This document shows, one piece after another, positions 3,067 through 11,874 of a DNA stretch of 19,843 bases (position 1 is the stretch's first letter; every line of letters begins with the position of its first letter). Location: contig JAUYTA010000458.1 of NCBI GenBank assembly GCA_030695265.1, positions 1 to 19,843 on the forward strand. The letters run 5' to 3'. Below the pieces are notes generated by a model, which worked only from the letters and a program-made list of their open reading frames with translations, did not search any database and had not been told where the DNA came from. Source of the stretch: Bacteroidota bacterium (GTDB lineage Bacteria; Bacteroidota; Bacteroidia; Bacteroidales; Prolixibacteraceae). The position numbers were made by a program, and so were the translations under genes.

Positions 3067-3675
3067 ATGAGTAAAAAGATAGCCATACCAAAGTTAAAAG
3101 TAATGGTAGCTTCTACCATTTTTGGTTTTGAAGACCAAATAGAACAGGTATGCTCTACACTGCAAGGGTATGGCTATGAAGTTTGGAATTCACATATAAG
3201 AACCATTCCTGTTCATCCAGGATTATCTAATACTGAAAATTGCCTTTGTGCAGTTGAAAGCTGTGATTTACTTTTTGGAATTATTCGACCGCGTTATGGA
3301 GCTGTACTTAATGGTGAATTATCTATAACACATCAAGAGATGCTAAAAGCTATCAATTTAAAAAGACCAAGATGGTTTATTGCTCATCGGGATATTTCCG
3401 TTGCATGCCAATTGCTAAAGCAATATATGTTTTGGGAAAATGGTGACCGTTCGCCTGCCTTCACTTTTCGAAAAACTGAGGTGTTGGATGATATACGGCT
3501 GATCAATCTATACAATGACACAATATTAAATGATGTGCTTCCTGCTGAACGAATTGGACATTGGGTTGACGAATATTTTCGATTAGGAGATATTCTAAAG
3601 TGTATTGAAACTCAATTTCAAGATAGAAATAGAGTGAGGAATATTGTAGGACAAATGAAACAACAAAAACAATGA
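3067..3675 (+). CDS. DUF4062-like protein, first gene of a two-gene accessory module
   Basis: A 202-residue cytoplasmic protein with no signal peptide or membrane segment. The N-terminal half fits DUF4062: a beta strand then VASTIFGFEDQ (14-24), where the family has an SS-x-x-D-L motif; a G-Y-E-V-W strand (36-40); a C-D-x-L-F-G-I strand (66-71); RPRYG (74-78); and SIT-x-x-E (86-91). DUF4062 is related to TIR- and nucleoside-deoxyribosyltransferase-like Rossmannoid folds and often occurs as a sensor or effector domain in prokaryotic conflict proteins. I do not recognise the C-terminal half (110-202). The start is fixed by an in-frame TGA directly before the ATG. The stop overlaps the next ATG (ATGA), so the two are translationally coupled. 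The sequence is visibly AT-richer than murG and murC. The function is not known; a defence or stress role is inference only. Confidence 0.75.
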   Translation: MSKKIAIPKLKVMVASTIFGFEDQIEQVCSTLQGYGYEVWNSHIRTIPVHPGLSNTENCLCAVESCDLLFGIIRPRYGAVLNGELSITHQEMLKAINLKRPRWFIAHRDISVACQLLKQYMFWENGDRSPAFTFRKTEVLDDIRLINLYNDTILNDVLPAERIGHWVDEYFRLGDILKCIETQFQDRNRVRNIVGQMKQQKQ

Positions 3676-5186
3676 AATCAGAACAACTCATAAAAGACCT
3701 GATAAAACAGGACGAAAGCGGACAGCTTGAGTTTAAAGAAGTTGTTCGTAAAGAGGCCATTGGTAAAACCATTTGCGGGTTTTTAAATAATGAAGGAGGT
3801 CAATTATTAATTGGCATCGCAGATAATAGAGAAATAAAAGGTGTAAAAAACGCTGATAAATTACAAATTGAAATAGAACAATTTCTCTTAAAGGAATTAG
3901 TACCAGAGGCTCCAGTAATGGTGTCTGTTGAAAAATACGGTGATAAACAATTGCTTCTAATCAAAGTCTGGGAAGGGTCAAAGCAACCTTATATTTTTAA
4001 CGGTAGTATTTATTATCGGAGAAAGGATCGCACAATTCAAGCATCGTCCAAAGAAATTTCTGAACTGATACATAAAAGACAGGAAACTGAAATACATTGG
4101 GAACGACAATCTGCTTTAGGTGTCGAATTGGACGATCTGGATTTGGAAGAAATCCAAAAGACAATGGAATTAGCTTTGTCGGACAATAAAATGAAAGACA
4201 TCAGAAAAGAGCCAATTGATTGTCTAACTTATTACGGGCTTTTTCAAAATGGCAATTTTACAAATGCAGCAGTGGTTCTTTTTGCTAAAAAGCCTTCACG
4301 ATTTATTCCACAGGCAAGGGTACGCATTGCTTTTCTTGATCATGGCAAAACAGGTGATATTTTCAAGGATGACCAATTGATAGAAGGCAATCTGTTTAAA
4401 AATATTGAAAGCATTCAATATTTTTTTGAAAAGCATTTATCCTATAGCAGAAAATTTGATGATAAAAATTGGAAACGTACCGATGATTATATTTTTCCTA
4501 TGGCTGCTTTGCGCGAAGGGGTGATGAACGCTTTAGTACATAGAGAGTATGGATTTGTTTCAAGTACCTTATCTATTATTATCTATCCCGACAAATTAGA
4601 GATAACGAATAGCGGCAAATCTCCTTTCAAACAAAGTGAGTTAAAGAAGAACCATCTATCAATGCCTTTTAATCCAGACATTGCACATATTGTTTTTCTT
4701 AGAGGTTATATTGAGAAAATAGGTAGGGGAACGCTAAAGATTATTGATGCATGTAAACAAGCCGGACTTAAAGCGCCTATTTGGGATATTGGGGAACATA
4801 CCGTGAAGCTTACTTTTTATAGCGATGTAATACTTGGCGGAGCTGTTGAAGTTGCCAATAAAGGAGCAGTTAAGGGAGCTATTGAGGGAACAGTTGAGGG
4901 AGCTATTGAGGGAACAATTGAGGGATCTATTGAGGGAGCTGTTGAGGAAGCAGTTGAGGGAGCAACTAGAGGAGTTAAAGAAAAATTGGCAATTTTGTTA
5001 AGTGCCATCGCAGCCAATGAAGGCAACAGAGTTCCTGATTACAAAAAAGCTACTGGATTAACTGACAAGAGTATGGAGCGCTATATTAAACAACTAAAAG
5101 AAGTTGGCCTTATAGAATTTAGAGGAGATGCACTACATACTGGTGGATACTATTTGACAAAGAAAATAAAAGTGAAATTGAAATAA
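3672..5186 (+). CDS. Schlafen/AlbA_2 and RecG-C-like ATP-binding protein with a tetrapeptide-repeat linker
   Basis: A 504-residue protein with four visible parts. (1) A Schlafen AlbA_2 domain, about 16-135: E-S-G-Q-L-E-F-K (15-22), ICGFLNNEGGQLLIGIAD (34-51), and YYRRKDRTI (114-122). (2) A linker region, 140-270. (3) A GHKL-like ATP-binding domain of the RecG-C-related type (HATPase_c_4), about 275-383: REGVMNALVHREY (281-293), ITNSG (311-315), IGRGT (350-354). (4) Ten G-[AST]-[IV]-E-like tetrapeptides (398-437), then a winged-helix segment (440-504). This architecture is common in proteins annotated as transcriptional regulators or ATP-binding proteins. It is coupled by ATGA to the upstream DUF4062-like gene and ends 19 bp before murC. 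AT-rich composition suggests acquisition. Domain assignment is firm; the biological role is unknown. Confidence 0.85.
   Translation: MKSEQLIKDLIKQDESGQLEFKEVVRKEAIGKTICGFLNNEGGQLLIGIADNREIKGVKNADKLQIEIEQFLLKELVPEAPVMVSVEKYGDKQLLLIKVWEGSKQPYIFNGSIYYRRKDRTIQASSKEISELIHKRQETEIHWERQSALGVELDDLDLEEIQKTMELALSDNKMKDIRKEPIDCLTYYGLFQNGNFTNAAVVLFAKKPSRFIPQARVRIAFLDHGKTGDIFKDDQLIEGNLFKNIESIQYFFEKHLSYSRKFDDKNWKRTDDYIFPMAALREGVMNALVHREYGFVSSTLSIIIYPDKLEITNSGKSPFKQSELKKNHLSMPFNPDIAHIVFLRGYIEKIGRGTLKIIDACKQAGLKAPIWDIGEHTVKLTFYSDVILGGAVEVANKGAVKGAIEGTVEGAIEGTIEGSIEGAVEEAVEGATRGVKEKLAILLSAIAANEGNRVPDYKKATGLTDKSMERYIKQLKEVGLIEFRGDALHTGGYYLTKKIKVKLK
4863..4982 (+). repeat. Ten 12-bp in-frame repeats encoding G-[AST]-[IV]-E tetrapeptides
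   Basis: Degenerate 12-bp units of the form GGA-RCW-RTT-GAG encode GAVK, GAIE, GTVE, GAIE, GTIE, GSIE, GAVE, EAVE, GATR and GVKE. The array lies between the ATPase domain and the winged helix of the AlbA_2 protein. Units near the middle are almost identical (GGAGCTATTGAG recurs), while the edges are degenerate, as expected if copy number changes by slippage or unequal exchange. Every change keeps frame, so only linker length would vary. Confidence 0.9.
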
Positions 5187-7336: not shown

Positions 7337-8626
7337 ATGGACAAGAACGAAAAAATATTTGCAGCAGTTGACATCGGATCCACGAAAGTGGTAGCTCTCG
7401 CCGGAAAAAAGGTTGACAACAATAAAATCCAGATTGTTGGACTTGGACACAGCCCCTCGCGAGGCATTAAACGGGGTGTTGTGCTAAATGTTGAGGAGGC
7501 ATTTGCTGCCGTGAATGACGCTGTAAATCATGCTGAAAAAGAATGCGGCCAGGTGATTGAAAACGTTTTTGTCAATATATCAGGACAACATCTGACCACG
7601 CTGACCACCAGCATTCAGGGTAATATCGGGCGCGACCATTATGTGACCGAGGCCGATGTCAATCAAATGGCAGAGCAGGCCCGCAAAATTGAACTGCCCG
7701 ATGGAATGTCCGTTTACCACATCAATTCCGAATTCTATACCGTTGACAATGAGACAGGAATTGTCAATCCGGTTGGAGCCATCGGCGATAAAGTCGTAGG
7801 AACTTATAAACTACACATTGCTCCTGAATATTATACAAGGAACATTGCCACTTGTTTCAGGCAAGGCTCAATCAATGTTCAGAAATCAATTCTGGATCCG
7901 ATTGCCTCTTCCGAAGTGGTTCTGACAGAAGATGAAAAGGAAGCCGGTGTTGCCCTGGTTGATATTGGCGGAGGCACCACCAAGATTTCTATTTTCTTCG
8001 ATGGTGTACTTTGCTACACTTCCATGGTTCCGTTTGGAGGCAATGTACTTACACACGACATTAAAGAGGGTTGTTCCATCACTGTCCGTCAGGCCGAATC
8101 GCTGAAAGTTCAGTTTGGTCAGGCCATCGCTGATTTTGCACCGGAAGACAAAGTAGTTACCATTCCGATTCAGGGTTGGGAGCCGCGCCAGATTTCGTTT
8201 AAAAGCCTTGCCAATATTATCCAGGCACGAATGGAAGAAATTGTGGATGGATTTGCATTCCAGATCAGAAAATCAGGATATGCAGATAAATTGGGCGCCG
8301 GAATTGTAATTACCGGAGGAACCTCGCTGTTGCCTAACCTGGGTCAGTTGATTAAGTTTCGCACCGGTTTTGATGTCAGAAAAGGCAGTCCCAATCTGAA
8401 TTATTTTGTGGCTCGCAAAGAAGTGGACGATCCCCGGTTTTCAACCGTTCTTGGCTTGCTAAAAATGGCTGCGGAAGAAGAAGGCCCGGTTGGAAAACGC
8501 AAGAAAGTGAAGGTTCCAAAAGTGAAATCGAATGAACCCGGTTTAATTAAAGTAATGCAAAATAAAATATTTCAGGGTGTTCTCGGATTTTTTGAAGAAA
8601 ACCCTGATGATACTGAAATGTCTTAG
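7337..8626 (+). CDS. ftsA: FtsA, actin-like membrane tether of the Z ring
   Basis: FtsA is an actin-family ATPase that anchors FtsZ to the membrane and recruits the division synthases. The protein has 429 residues. ATP-binding motifs: phosphate 1 AVDIGSTK (10-17), phosphate 2 VDIGGGTTK (208-216) and adenosine motif GIVITGGTSLLPN (322-334). The FtsA-specific 1C domain follows the first motif (VFVNISGQHL, 77-86). The C-terminus carries a basic stretch (KRKKVKVPKVK, 387-397) and then an amphipathic segment, NKIFQGVLGFFEE (409-421), which fits the membrane-targeting helix of the family. It starts 3 bp after ftsQ and precedes two ftsZ genes, so it may have two polymer partners. Confidence 0.97.
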   Translation: MDKNEKIFAAVDIGSTKVVALAGKKVDNNKIQIVGLGHSPSRGIKRGVVLNVEEAFAAVNDAVNHAEKECGQVIENVFVNISGQHLTTLTTSIQGNIGRDHYVTEADVNQMAEQARKIELPDGMSVYHINSEFYTVDNETGIVNPVGAIGDKVVGTYKLHIAPEYYTRNIATCFRQGSINVQKSILDPIASSEVVLTEDEKEAGVALVDIGGGTTKISIFFDGVLCYTSMVPFGGNVLTHDIKEGCSITVRQAESLKVQFGQAIADFAPEDKVVTIPIQGWEPRQISFKSLANIIQARMEEIVDGFAFQIRKSGYADKLGAGIVITGGTSLLPNLGQLIKFRTGFDVRKGSPNLNYFVARKEVDDPRFSTVLGLLKMAAEEEGPVGKRKKVKVPKVKSNEPGLIKVMQNKIFQGVLGFFEENPDDTEMS

Positions 8627-8651: not shown

Positions 8652-9929
8652 ATGATCGACGAGATTCTTAATTTCGGAATAGAGCAAGCAAATTCTTCCA
8701 TCATCAAAGTTATTGGTGTGGGGGGAGGTGGGTGTAATGCCGTCAAACACATGTTTGATGAAGGCATTGTGGGTGTTGACTTTATTATTTGCAACACCGA
8801 TGCGCAGGCGATGCAAAACAATCCGGTGCCCATCCGGATTCAGCTCGGGGTAACCCTTACTGAAGGCCGTGGTGCGGGCAATTTACCTGAACAGGGCGAA
8901 CAGGCTGCCATCGAAAATCTGGACGATATCCGGAATGTTCTGGAAGGTACTACCAAAATGGTGTTTATCACCGCCGGAATGGGAGGTGGAACCGGAACCG
9001 GGGCTGCCCCCGTAATTGCACAACTTGCACGCGATTTGGGAATCCTGACCATTGCGGTGGTTACACTTCCATCTCCGGCAGAAGGAAAACGGAGGTACGA
9101 TCAGGCACGTGCAGGAATTGACAGGCTGAAAGATCATGTGGATAGTATGCTGGTAATCAGCAACGAAAAACTTCATAAAATATACGGAAACCTTCCTGCA
9201 TCGGTGGCATTTAAAAAAGCCGACAACATCATCACAACAGCGGTAAAGGGAGTGGCCGAAATAATTACCCTTCACGGAAACATCAACATCGACTTTGCTG
9301 ATGTGTGCACGGTTATGGCCGGCAGCGAAGTATTTATTATGGGAACCGGCTTTGCAACCGGCGAAGGTCGCGCGATGAAGTCTGTTCAGCAGGCGCTCGA
9401 ATCGCCTTTACTCGATAGCAGCAGTATTAAAGGAACCAAAGATATATTGCTCAATATGATCTCCGGAACACAGGAAATCACGATGGGCGAAATTGGCGAA
9501 ATCATTGATTACTTGCAGGAAGCTGCAGGTCAGGATGCAACAATTATCTGGGGAAATGGTATTGACTTGCGACTTGGCGACCAGATAAGTGTCACAATTA
9601 TTGCAACCGGTTTCGATGTGAACCCGAACCGGATTTTCCAGCGACCATCCGATATTGTTGAATTGGTAATGGAAGACAACGGATTTGAAATCAACCTTGA
9701 AGATGAAAAATCACTCGAAGTGGTTGAAGCGACAACTTCTAAAAGGGAGGTTTTGAAAGAGGTTAAAAACTTTCCGCTTCGGGAAGAAAAGCCCGGGAAA
9801 CAAAAAACGCGACGAAAAAACGAACTGGTTGCCGAGTCAAATTCTGAAGACACAAACAGTTGGTTTTCGCGTCAGTTTTCGAAATTTTTTGAAGACAAAA
9901 ATTCATCAGAATCAGATGAAATGCAATAG
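8652..9929 (+). CDS. ftsZ: FtsZ paralogue 1 (divergent copy lacking the canonical C-terminal peptide)
   Basis: A 425-residue tubulin-fold GTPase. GTP-binding and polymerisation motifs are kept: GVGGGGCNAV (22-31, with Cys28 where Gly is usual), NTDAQA (48-53), GMGGGTGTGAAP (109-120), E144 and R148, F187 and D191, and the T7 loop NIDFAD (212-217) that supplies the catalytic acid. It aligns with the next gene without a gap through residue 218. Differences from that copy include TLPSPAEG (138-145) for TIPFRNEG, and E226 and F228 for G and A. The roughly 105-residue tail has no IPA[FY]-type FtsA-binding peptide; it ends in WFSRQFSKFFED (404-415), which plots as an amphipathic helix. It is probably GTPase-competent and co-expressed with ftsA and the second ftsZ. 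Its exact role is unknown. Confidence 0.93.
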   Translation: MIDEILNFGIEQANSSIIKVIGVGGGGCNAVKHMFDEGIVGVDFIICNTDAQAMQNNPVPIRIQLGVTLTEGRGAGNLPEQGEQAAIENLDDIRNVLEGTTKMVFITAGMGGGTGTGAAPVIAQLARDLGILTIAVVTLPSPAEGKRRYDQARAGIDRLKDHVDSMLVISNEKLHKIYGNLPASVAFKKADNIITTAVKGVAEIITLHGNINIDFADVCTVMAGSEVFIMGTGFATGEGRAMKSVQQALESPLLDSSSIKGTKDILLNMISGTQEITMGEIGEIIDYLQEAAGQDATIIWGNGIDLRLGDQISVTIIATGFDVNPNRIFQRPSDIVELVMEDNGFEINLEDEKSLEVVEATTSKREVLKEVKNFPLREEKPGKQKTRRKNELVAESNSEDTNSWFSRQFSKFFEDKNSSESDEMQ

Positions 9930-9962
9930 ATATCAGAATATTAACAAGAAAAATATAGGATC

Positions 9963-11381
9963 ATGTCAAATGAAATAATGAATTTTGATATTGCCTCGGA
10001 CTCCGGTTCAATCATAAAGGTAATTGGTGTAGGCGGTGGTGGTGGAAATGCGGTAAATCACATGTACCGTCAGGGGATTCGTGATGTGGATTTTATGGTT
10101 TGTAATACCGATTCACAAGCATTGGTAAACAGTCCGGTTCCGTTCAAGGTTCAACTGGGGTCGTCGCTCACCGAAGGGCGCGGCGCCGGAAATAAACCCG
10201 AAACCGGTCGCGATGCTGCCATCGAAAATATTGAAGATGTAAAAAAGATACTGGGCAGCAATACGAAAATGGTTTTCATTACTGCCGGAATGGGAGGTGG
10301 AACAGGTACAGGTGGCGCTCCGGTAATTGCGCAGGCAGCCAAAGAATTGGGCATCCTGACAGTTGGAATTGTGACCATTCCTTTCCGTAACGAAGGTCGC
10401 CGCCGCATCAAGCAAGCCATTGACGGGATTGCAGCCATGGAAACGCATGTTGATTCGCTGCTGGTGATCAACAACGAACGCATCCGCGAAATGTACGGCG
10501 ATTTCAAAATCTCGGACGCCTTTGCAAAAGCCGATAATATTCTGGCTACCGCTGCAAAAGGAATTGCAGAAATCATTACTGTTCCCGGTTACATCAACGT
10601 TGACTTTGCCGATGTTGAAACGGTGATGCGCAACAGTGGTGTCGCCCTCATGGGAACCGGCGTTGCTTCAGGAGTAAACCGCGCGTTGATTGCCGTTGAA
10701 GAAGCTTTGAATTCGCCGTTGCTGAACAACAACGACATTTTGGGTGCACGCAATATTTTGCTGAACATTACTTCAGGATCGGAAGAAATTACCATGGACG
10801 AAATTGGCGAAATCACCGATTTTATTCAGGAAAAAGCCGGAAATTCTGCCGATTTAATCTGGGGAAATGGAGTTGACGAGGAATTGGGCGACAAAATTTC
10901 GGTAACAATTATTGCTACCGGTTTCAGCACCAGCAGTATTCCTGAAATGGCAATGAACCAAAATCAGGAAAAAACCTATCATACACTGAGTGATGAAGTT
11001 CAGGGGAATAATTCTTCAGCCAGGTCGGAAATAAAACCTCCTTTTGAAAATGAATTGTACGGTTCGAAGAATGTGAAGCAAAAAACATTCGAATTTGAAA
11101 TAAACACCAGCGTGTTCGACGAGTTTGAAGAATTGTACGGAAATAATCCAAAAAAGGAAAACTTCAACCAGGTAAACGAGCCGGTTGATTACACCCAAAC
11201 AACTGAAGAAGCGGTAGATGAACTGGAAAACATTCCTGCTTACCGTCGGAAAAATCTTCGGTTTTCAGGGTTTAAAAAAAAAGTTGAAGAAAAATTCTCC
11301 AGATTTTCTATTTCGCCCGATGAAAATAATGATGTAATTTTACGTGACAATAATTCATACCTTCACGACAACGTTGACTAA
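9963..11381 (+). CDS. ftsZ: FtsZ, canonical copy (paralogue 2)
   Basis: The main Z-ring GTPase by sequence. The protein has 472 residues: GVGGGGGNAV (22-31), NTDSQA (48-53), GMGGGTGTGGAP (109-120), TIPFRNEGRRR (138-148) and T7 loop NVDFAD (212-217). A long acidic, Asn-rich linker (about 325-420) leads to ELENIPAYRRKNLRF (420-434), equivalent to the IPAFLRKQ peptide through which FtsZ binds FtsA. A further basic helix follows, and the very end, NNSYLHDNVD, is the Bacteroidota-type FtsZ terminus. This copy therefore looks like the ortholog of the single FtsZ found in most relatives, and the upstream copy like the derived one. It starts 33 bp after the first ftsZ. Confidence 0.97.
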   Translation: MSNEIMNFDIASDSGSIIKVIGVGGGGGNAVNHMYRQGIRDVDFMVCNTDSQALVNSPVPFKVQLGSSLTEGRGAGNKPETGRDAAIENIEDVKKILGSNTKMVFITAGMGGGTGTGGAPVIAQAAKELGILTVGIVTIPFRNEGRRRIKQAIDGIAAMETHVDSLLVINNERIREMYGDFKISDAFAKADNILATAAKGIAEIITVPGYINVDFADVETVMRNSGVALMGTGVASGVNRALIAVEEALNSPLLNNNDILGARNILLNITSGSEEITMDEIGEITDFIQEKAGNSADLIWGNGVDEELGDKISVTIIATGFSTSSIPEMAMNQNQEKTYHTLSDEVQGNNSSARSEIKPPFENELYGSKNVKQKTFEFEINTSVFDEFEELYGNNPKKENFNQVNEPVDYTQTTEEAVDELENIPAYRRKNLRFSGFKKKVEEKFSRFSISPDENNDVILRDNNSYLHDNVD

Positions 11382-11393
11382 TAAAATACGAAT

Positions 11394-11843
11394 ATGAATC
11401 TATTTGATCAGATAAGCAATGACATTTTAACCGCCATGAAAGCCCGTGAAAAGGAAAAACTTGAGGCTTTGCGCGGAATTAAAAAAGTAATGATCGAAGC
11501 GAAATCAGCGGCTGGGGCAACCGGCGAGCTGACAGATCAGGAAGTGCTGAAGATTATCCAGAAACTGGCCAAACAGGGAACTGACTCTGCTACCATCTAC
11601 AAGGAACAGGGCCGCGATAATCTGTATGAACAGGAAATGTTTCAGGTAAAAGTCTTTGAAACCTATCTTCCTGTAAAAATGTCGGATGCTGAGTTAACGG
11701 GCGCCATTCAGGCTATTATTACTGAAGTGGGCGCTACCAGCATTAAGGAGATGGGAAAAGTAATGGGAATCGCTTCAAAAAAGCTGGCTGGTCTGGCCGA
11801 TGGAAAAGATATTTCAGAAAAAGTGAAAGAGCTGTTAAGTTAA
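11394..11843 (+). CDS. yqeY: GatB/YqeY domain protein
   Basis: A 149-residue soluble, helical protein of the YqeY family, which shares the tRNA-binding C-terminal domain of GatB/GatE amidotransferase subunits but is free-standing. Typical features are the N-terminal D-x-x-x-AMKA-R-E-K-x-x-L-x-x-LR segment (about 10-27), an E-x-x-F-x-x-YLP motif (83-91) and the C-terminal GKVMGI...G-x-A-D-G-K-x-I pattern (121-140). The biological role is not settled. It follows ftsZ by 12 bp and is the last gene of the dcw transcript before a strong terminator; its place after ftsZ is common in this phylum. Confidence 0.93.
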   Translation: MNLFDQISNDILTAMKAREKEKLEALRGIKKVMIEAKSAAGATGELTDQEVLKIIQKLAKQGTDSATIYKEQGRDNLYEQEMFQVKVFETYLPVKMSDAELTGAIQAIITEVGATSIKEMGKVMGIASKKLAGLADGKDISEKVKELLS

Positions 11844-11856
11844 AAATATAATGTCT

Positions 11857-11874
11857 AACCTGAAATTTCAGGTT
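11857..11874. other. 18-bp perfect palindrome AACCTGAAATTTCAGGTT after yqeY
   Basis: A perfect self-complementary 18-mer starts 14 bp after the yqeY stop and is followed by TTGTAATT. It can form a 7-bp stem with a 4-nt loop and a short U-run, so it may be a weak first terminator in front of the stronger hairpin at 11886-11926. A protein-binding palindrome is also possible. Confidence 0.5.

Follow-up and report, generated by a model that had tools for sequence, protein, structure and literature searches.

Two FtsZ genes follow each other behind ftsA

What does a bacterium gain from two complete FtsZ proteins encoded side by side, and do both reach the membrane by the same route? The question arose from the window—the whole 19,843-nt stretch of Prolixibacteraceae DNA analysed here—in which ftsQ, ftsA, two ftsZ genes and yqeY lie on the same plus strand with successive gaps of 3, 25, 33 and 12 bp. 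The gene 5' of ftsA (plus strand) is named ftsQ by its position and has no Pfam match, while ftsA itself (7337..8626, plus strand) is an open reading frame with matches to Pfam FtsA (PF14450) and SHS2_FTSA, whose product ends in ...KIFQGVLGFFEENPDDTEMS. The upstream FtsZ paralogue, ftsZ-U (8652..9929, plus strand), starts 25 bp behind ftsA with an ATG and encodes 425 aa; the downstream gene, ftsZ-D (9963..11381, plus strand), likewise starts with an ATG and encodes 472 aa. The next gene of the same-strand run, yqeY (11394..11843, plus strand; Pfam YqeY), begins 12 bp after ftsZ-D and is followed by a terminator-like hairpin (11857-11874). A scan for consensus promoter and terminator sites, which covers these types only, found no more of them at the locus than in shuffled sequence, the number of terminator-like hairpins not being above chance.

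Both window copies pass the curated Pfam cut-offs for Tubulin and for FtsZ_C, and the window's genome holds exactly two FtsZ_C matches, both at the tandem locus. An initial annotation of this DNA had described two full-length ftsZ genes 33 bp apart after ftsA that align gaplessly through the GTPase core. Reading frames and domains confirm that both genes are intact; in a BLASTP alignment (59% identity over 343 aa), the sole gap, of 9 positions, lies beyond the FtsZ_C domain. A fragmented single gene can be rejected, as both copies are full length with both domains, and so can a recent or near-identical duplicate, given the 59% identity and the separate clade of FtsZ-U described below. The near-identity that the annotation had named as speaking against its proposal is thus not what we find.

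The two products differ at their ends. FtsA, which normally anchors FtsZ to the membrane, docks onto a conserved peptide at the FtsZ C-terminus (PAYxRR-like). In FtsZ-D this peptide is read directly in the sequence as IPAYRR (11232..11249, plus strand), together with the usual Bacteroidota end; FtsZ-U lacks it.

Elsewhere in the window, a DUF4062 gene and a SLFN_AlbA_2/HATPase_c_4 gene (3067-5186) interrupt the division cluster, flanked by genes that, from the look of their sequences, we take to be murG and murC. The SLFN_AlbA_2/HATPase_c_4 protein matches a PADLOC pAgo model (E 1.3e-19).

The pair is conserved in Prolixibacteraceae and recurs in Bacteroidales

Across 140 genomes of the window's family, Prolixibacteraceae, we counted two FtsZ matches in 126, three in 5, one in 4 and none in 5, that is, at least two in 131 of the 140. 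Third matches proved to be split pieces or distant FtsZ-like genes. The match lies at a contig end in two of the four single-match genomes (G013, G128), and four of the five genomes lacking a match are 68-84% complete (the fifth, G065, is 95% complete). The order ftsA-ftsZ-ftsZ was found in 27/27 family loci fetched with ftsA in view, one of them within a single-contig genome of 5.7 Mb (G011), so the tandem is not an assembly artefact—a candidate also rejected by the same gene order in complete and unrelated genomes. Incomplete copies occur in two of these 27 loci: the downstream gene of L047 runs off its contig and the upstream gene of L058 contains a masked stretch.

With respect to the order as a whole, an even draw of 295 genomes, 291 of them outside the family, returned more than one FtsZ match in 25 of the latter. 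Full-length tandem copies were present in 13/291, distributed over families f16, f23, f32, f70, f85, f91 and f106. G222 has two ftsZ copies, each at a contig end; in the remaining multi-match genomes the surplus comes from split or fragmentary genes, from a copy on a separate contig or from distant FtsZ-like genes. For 115 genomes that belong to the class but not to the order, the matches listed, down to a weak E-value limit, include no second full-length FtsZ. Five of the 80 titled contigs listed carry the pair (Maribellus luteus, Prolixibacter bellariivorans, a Draconibacterium MAG, a Prolixibacteraceae MAG and a Marinifilum), and three Marinilabiliaceae among these 80 have one FtsZ each. 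Family f106 looks like Odoribacter, the name given to 3 of the best 120 relatives of its U copy.

Further FtsZ-like proteins or pieces, distant in sequence (23-46% identity), lie away from the main or tandem ftsZ locus, at G142:C150, G117:C602 and G154:C2, and in G219, G322, G410, G289, G366 and G304. At four loci of f32 and f70 (L064, L065, L066, L067) there are three tandem FtsZ genes, of which both upstream copies have hydrophobic tails that are of two different types and fall into separate clades.

The duplication predates the family, and its number of origins may exceed one

We placed the copies in FtsZ trees whose rows all come from the window's class and hence include no plastid sequences. 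In a tree of 144 cores, the 32 family upstream copies formed one clade (SH-aLRT 99), apart from the family downstream copies, FtsZ-D of the window included, which group together. A thinned tree of 91 rows, which leaves out L060, L072, L089 and many near relatives, recovered the family U clade with SH-aLRT 100. The duplication therefore predates the radiation of the family, and the predicted separate clade with conserved synteny holds across the family, by both trees and fetched loci.

Outside the family, the upstream copies of f23, of f106 and of f32/f70 (U1) form their own clades (support 100 each), and the second upstream copy (U2) of f32/f70 joins f85 (support 88-89). The U clades of different families join each other with poor support in the FtsZ trees, and an AU test on 45 hand-picked rows, 17 of them U, was compatible with one common U clade (p 0.387). 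In an RpoB tree lacking L232, L233 and L260 (hence G208), as well as G377 and G387, which gave no RpoB match, the tandem families occupy four branches, separated by single-copy families, which implies 3 changes, many deep forks being open. The FtsA tree joins tandem families to some single-copy ones (SH-aLRT 96), although its branches are long and it came with a warning.

FtsZ-U has a predicted amphipathic tail in place of the docking peptide

The docking peptide is absent from 48/49 sampled U copies, L072_U being the one real case (pattern matches in L051_U and L067_U2 are spurious), and present in 42/44 D copies, 20/21 single copies from the order and 27/28 from the class, all with closed ends. 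Rows lacking a closed end were left out of these counts and of the hydrophobic-moment counts below; the masked U copy of L058 was dropped, and its D copy is hence counted as 'single'. Locus L072 (G330, f91) stands apart: the upstream copy of its tandem keeps a docking-like PTYNR and has no FtsA-like tail, and its downstream copy has an altered G-box, GGVVGTG. This pair is another kind of duplication.

The family U copies terminate in approximately NWFxRQFxxFFDD, a conserved WFxRQFxxFF followed by acids. Among 32 family U copies, W404 is conserved in 97%, F405 in 88%, F409 in 94% and F413 in 94%, and in the linker before the tail the most frequent residue has a mean share of 0.29. In the window, this predicted amphipathic membrane-targeting tail covers FtsZ-U residues 402-416, NSWFSRQFSKFFEDK (9855..9899, plus strand), as called from its conservation, a shuffle test, its similarity to FtsA tails and an AlphaFold helix. 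Odoribacter-type U copies end in WLKRKIGTLFSDEE, one f23 U copy in FVGSLFDDKDDQLV, and extra f32 copies in stretches such as FLINFFDDLEE and WIQTTFDVLFNADEE. The E. coli K-12 FtsA tail, taken from the genome, is of similar make (GSWIKRLNSWLRKEF).

Three of four measures suggested the U tails to resemble FtsA tails and not those of other FtsZs. The best hydrophobic moment over 11 residues had a median of 0.638 in U copies and 0.638 in FtsA, against 0.334-0.378 in other FtsZs; it exceeded shuffled sequences at p<0.05 in 21/49 U, 32/89 FtsA and 0/93 other FtsZ tails, leaving 28/49 U and 57/89 FtsA tails short of that level. The most hydrophobic 11-mer was amphipathic in 41/49 U, 62/82 FtsA and 4/95 other FtsZ sequences. 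Local similarity to FtsA tails, scored over each tail's own shuffles, had a median z of 3.41 for U. Of the 49 U copies 84% had z above 2, as did 95% of 41 held-out FtsA tails, but only 2% of 45 D copies and 2% of 50 single ones. A HeliQuest-type D factor disagreed, being above threshold in 24/49 U, 24/45 D, 4/50 single-copy and 76/82 FtsA tails, and it therefore gives U no edge over D in lipid binding. The known lipid binder E. coli FtsA reaches the D-factor threshold but is not scored as amphipathic by its most hydrophobic 11-mer, so that this last measure is imperfect.

The tail motif recurred in 109 of the best 120 of 8000 U homologues and in 114 of the best 120 of 8000 homologues of the Odoribacter type, with the docking pattern in none of either. 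The 11 U homologues without the motif look shortened, with ends such as WFSRMFSRKPETKDS. AlphaFold modeled one helix in the C-terminal extension of the window's FtsZ-U, at residues 404-414 and with low confidence (pLDDT about 36-40), besides a four-residue turn at 325-328; the Odoribacter U model was poor. A terminal amphipathic helix is thus predicted for FtsZ-U by its sequence and by this low-confidence model, with the D factor not separating U from D.

That the downstream copy keeps the Bacteroidota-type C-terminus and the upstream copy has changed, as initially annotated, is borne out by a docking peptide in the one and an FtsA-like tail in the other; the amphipathic, FtsA-like nature of that tail was missing from the annotation. 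Its proposal of a duplication with later divergence, rather than a fusion or fragment, stands for the core, but the tail is possibly an acquisition. The proposed subfunctionalisation takes a concrete form, a docking peptide swapped for an FtsA-like amphipathic tail, with a co-polymer and self-anchor role as its likely content.

Because an FtsA-like tail replaces the docking peptide, FtsZ-U most likely binds the membrane directly. We propose, with a probability of roughly 60%, that FtsZ-U is a self-anchoring FtsZ that would co-polymerise with FtsZ-D and serve as an anchor of the ring besides FtsA.

FtsA may evolve faster in genomes with the pair

SepF was found in 0/41 genomes of relatives, the window's included, in a search to which 7/14 control genomes were positive; FtsA is therefore the only FtsZ anchor identified, SepF being the one alternative looked for. 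The ratio of FtsA to RpoB distances to outgroups had a median of 2.99 in 21 tandem genomes vs 2.04 in 19 single-copy ones (Mann-Whitney p 2.3e-4), a contrast that reduces to no more than 1-3 independent pairs on the RpoB tree. Its 'single-copy' set also counts three fast genomes, the tandem but tailless G330 among them. FtsZ-D or single-copy FtsZ showed no rate difference between tandem and single-copy genomes (p 0.39). Tails of U and FtsA from the same genome were more alike than shuffled pairs, with p 0.0025 across 26 family loci and 0/2000 shuffles reaching the observed match in a subset of 20, D controls giving p 0.5-0.6; with one locus per clade, the match was no longer significant (p 0.095, n=12). 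Evidence for co-evolution of U and FtsA is accordingly weak. In the Odoribacter-type f106 (L069, L070, L071), FtsA is extremely divergent, with a branch length of 4.2 in the FtsA tree, short (385-389 aa) and of odd amino-acid make-up.

These data bear on an alternative in which the U tail binds protein and makes no lipid contact, being a modified docking motif recognised by FtsA or by some other component of the divisome. Faster FtsA in tandem genomes could then mean a changed FtsA-FtsZ interface; the tryptophan and three phenylalanines (W404 and its partners, 88-97%) are kept more strictly than simple lipid binding requires, and by the D factor U cannot be told from D. However, U tails match those of FtsA in residue order and hydrophobic moment, and the small number of independent pairs (1-3) limits what the FtsA rates can say about an interface. 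We consider this alternative unlikely, though one to be kept in mind.

A broader form of the self-anchoring proposal, to which we give somewhat less than even odds, would have such an FtsZ made perhaps several times in Bacteroidales, yielding a mixed ring in which one tubulin is lipid-bound and the other FtsA-bound. FtsA, no longer the sole tether, would drift fast, most of all in Odoribacter, and f32 and f70 would have two such tails among their three tandem FtsZs.

The FtsZ-U core is intact and under purifying selection

The G-box and the T7-loop N-x-D-x-x-D are catalytic across the subunit interface. The G-box GGGTGTG and the relaxed T7 pattern N-x-D-x-x-D were each present in 49/49 U copies, and a stricter T7 pattern fitted 39/49 U, 43/45 D and 46/50 single copies. 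Core dN/dS for six pairs ranged from 0.016 to 0.051 in U and from 0.017 to 0.032 in D, some pairs being near silent-site saturation. A pseudogene is ruled out by this purifying selection, and the decay of the upstream copy that the annotation had entertained as a counter-finding is not observed. C-terminal extensions had a median length of about 104 aa in U vs 150 in D, with dN over six pairs of 0.13-0.35 in U vs 0.05-0.14 in D.

In two f23 genomes (L061, L062), the docking-peptide copy has the G-box GKGTGTG and the tailed copy a canonical one; in a third (L063), both are canonical. The change is possibly a further division of labour.

Could FtsZ-U be no anchor but a regulator of FtsZ-D polymers, capping, slowing or loosening them, with a tail that mainly sets its local concentration? 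An extension shorter and faster-changing than that of D, on a core that keeps both catalytic motifs, would suit such a protein, but the active site is complete and the motifs checked reveal no capping-type loss of one face, which makes a pure regulator improbable. That FtsZ-U is a redundant or decaying duplicate lacking a role of its own is strongly disfavoured: the eroded-looking tails of 11 of the best 120 homologues and the one stop codon in each of four U matches (G107, G131, G132, G161) could hint at it, but the stop is the natural gene end in both cases fetched (G107, G132), and at least two FtsZ matches in 131/140 family genomes, a core dN/dS of 0.016-0.051 and a separate conserved tail speak against it.

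To return to the self-anchoring FtsZ, the simplest mechanism on offer, its history may be pictured as follows. An old tandem duplication of ftsZ beside ftsA would have produced two division tubulins with different routes to the membrane. FtsZ-D, having kept the docking peptide, is presumably held by FtsA. FtsZ-U would have lost that peptide, and its putatively disordered linker now runs out into a short amphipathic segment and then acidic residues, by which it probably touches the membrane itself. Through its intact GTP-binding and T7 faces, FtsZ-U probably enters the same filaments as FtsZ-D, and could so both tether the mixed ring and tune its dynamics. What the computation shows is the pair itself and how old it is within the family, a core that is intact, a docking peptide that is lost and an amphipathic, FtsA-like tail that is conserved.

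Comparison with known systems

The tandem FtsZ pair at this locus is genuine, old and conserved, with its C-terminal module exchanged in one copy; dual FtsZs and direct anchoring are each already known. A search of the open-licence literature found no published report of the tandem FtsZ-U/FtsZ-D pair. The nearest likeness is man-made. According to PMC7320174, the laboratory chimera FtsZ-YFP-mts[FtsA-E. coli] binds membrane and forms rotating rings in a minimal in vitro system and, compared with a chimera carrying the MinD tail, covers the membrane more densely and rotates its rings more slowly. An FtsZ with an FtsA-type tail can therefore work. The chimeras share with FtsZ-U an FtsZ core and a linker ending in an FtsA-type amphipathic tail, but they are built from one FtsZ with YFP fused, whereas FtsZ-U has a natural, predicted tail and a second FtsZ with docking peptide beside it.

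Chloroplast FtsZ2 keeps the docking peptide, which chloroplast FtsZ1 lacks. The C-terminus of FtsZ1 binds membrane (Liu 2022 and An 2024, as cited in passages of PMC12583498). Like the window pair as we propose it, these are, on that account, two co-existing FtsZs of which one is membrane-binding; but they belong to a plastid and presumably to an independent duplication, and the tail of the bacterial FtsZ-U resembles that of FtsA. Mycoplasma has no cell wall. Its FtsZ binds the membrane by its own N- or C-terminal motif (Dutta 2025, as cited in PMC12583498) and is thus, like FtsZ-U as proposed, a bacterial FtsZ with direct membrane binding, the cited passages mentioning no tandem partner. Odinarchaeota FtsZ1 binds the membrane directly by its own amphipathic helix (PMC12583498). 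As there described, one FtsZ is tethered by a helix and the other by an anchor protein, which is the arrangement suggested for the window pair, but in the archaea the helix lies at the N-terminus, SepF serves as the anchor and the duplication is separate from the bacterial one.

Second ftsZ copies in other bacteria likewise reflect duplication with possible subfunctionalisation, as a 2023 survey has it (PMC9871819). The additional copies described there lie outside the dcw cluster, whereas the window pair is inside it and in tandem.

If the self-anchoring reading is true, FtsZ-U would be a natural counterpart of the FtsZ-mts chimeras that have been used to ask whether FtsZ alone shapes membranes. 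It would be found in walled bacteria, including Prolixibacter bellariivorans ATCC BAA-1284, Maribellus luteus, a Marinifilum and, by protein names, Odoribacter. With the pair one could ask why a single tubulin tether does not always suffice, and whether a self-anchored FtsZ next to an adaptor-anchored one, as in chloroplasts and archaea, may be a recurrent design.
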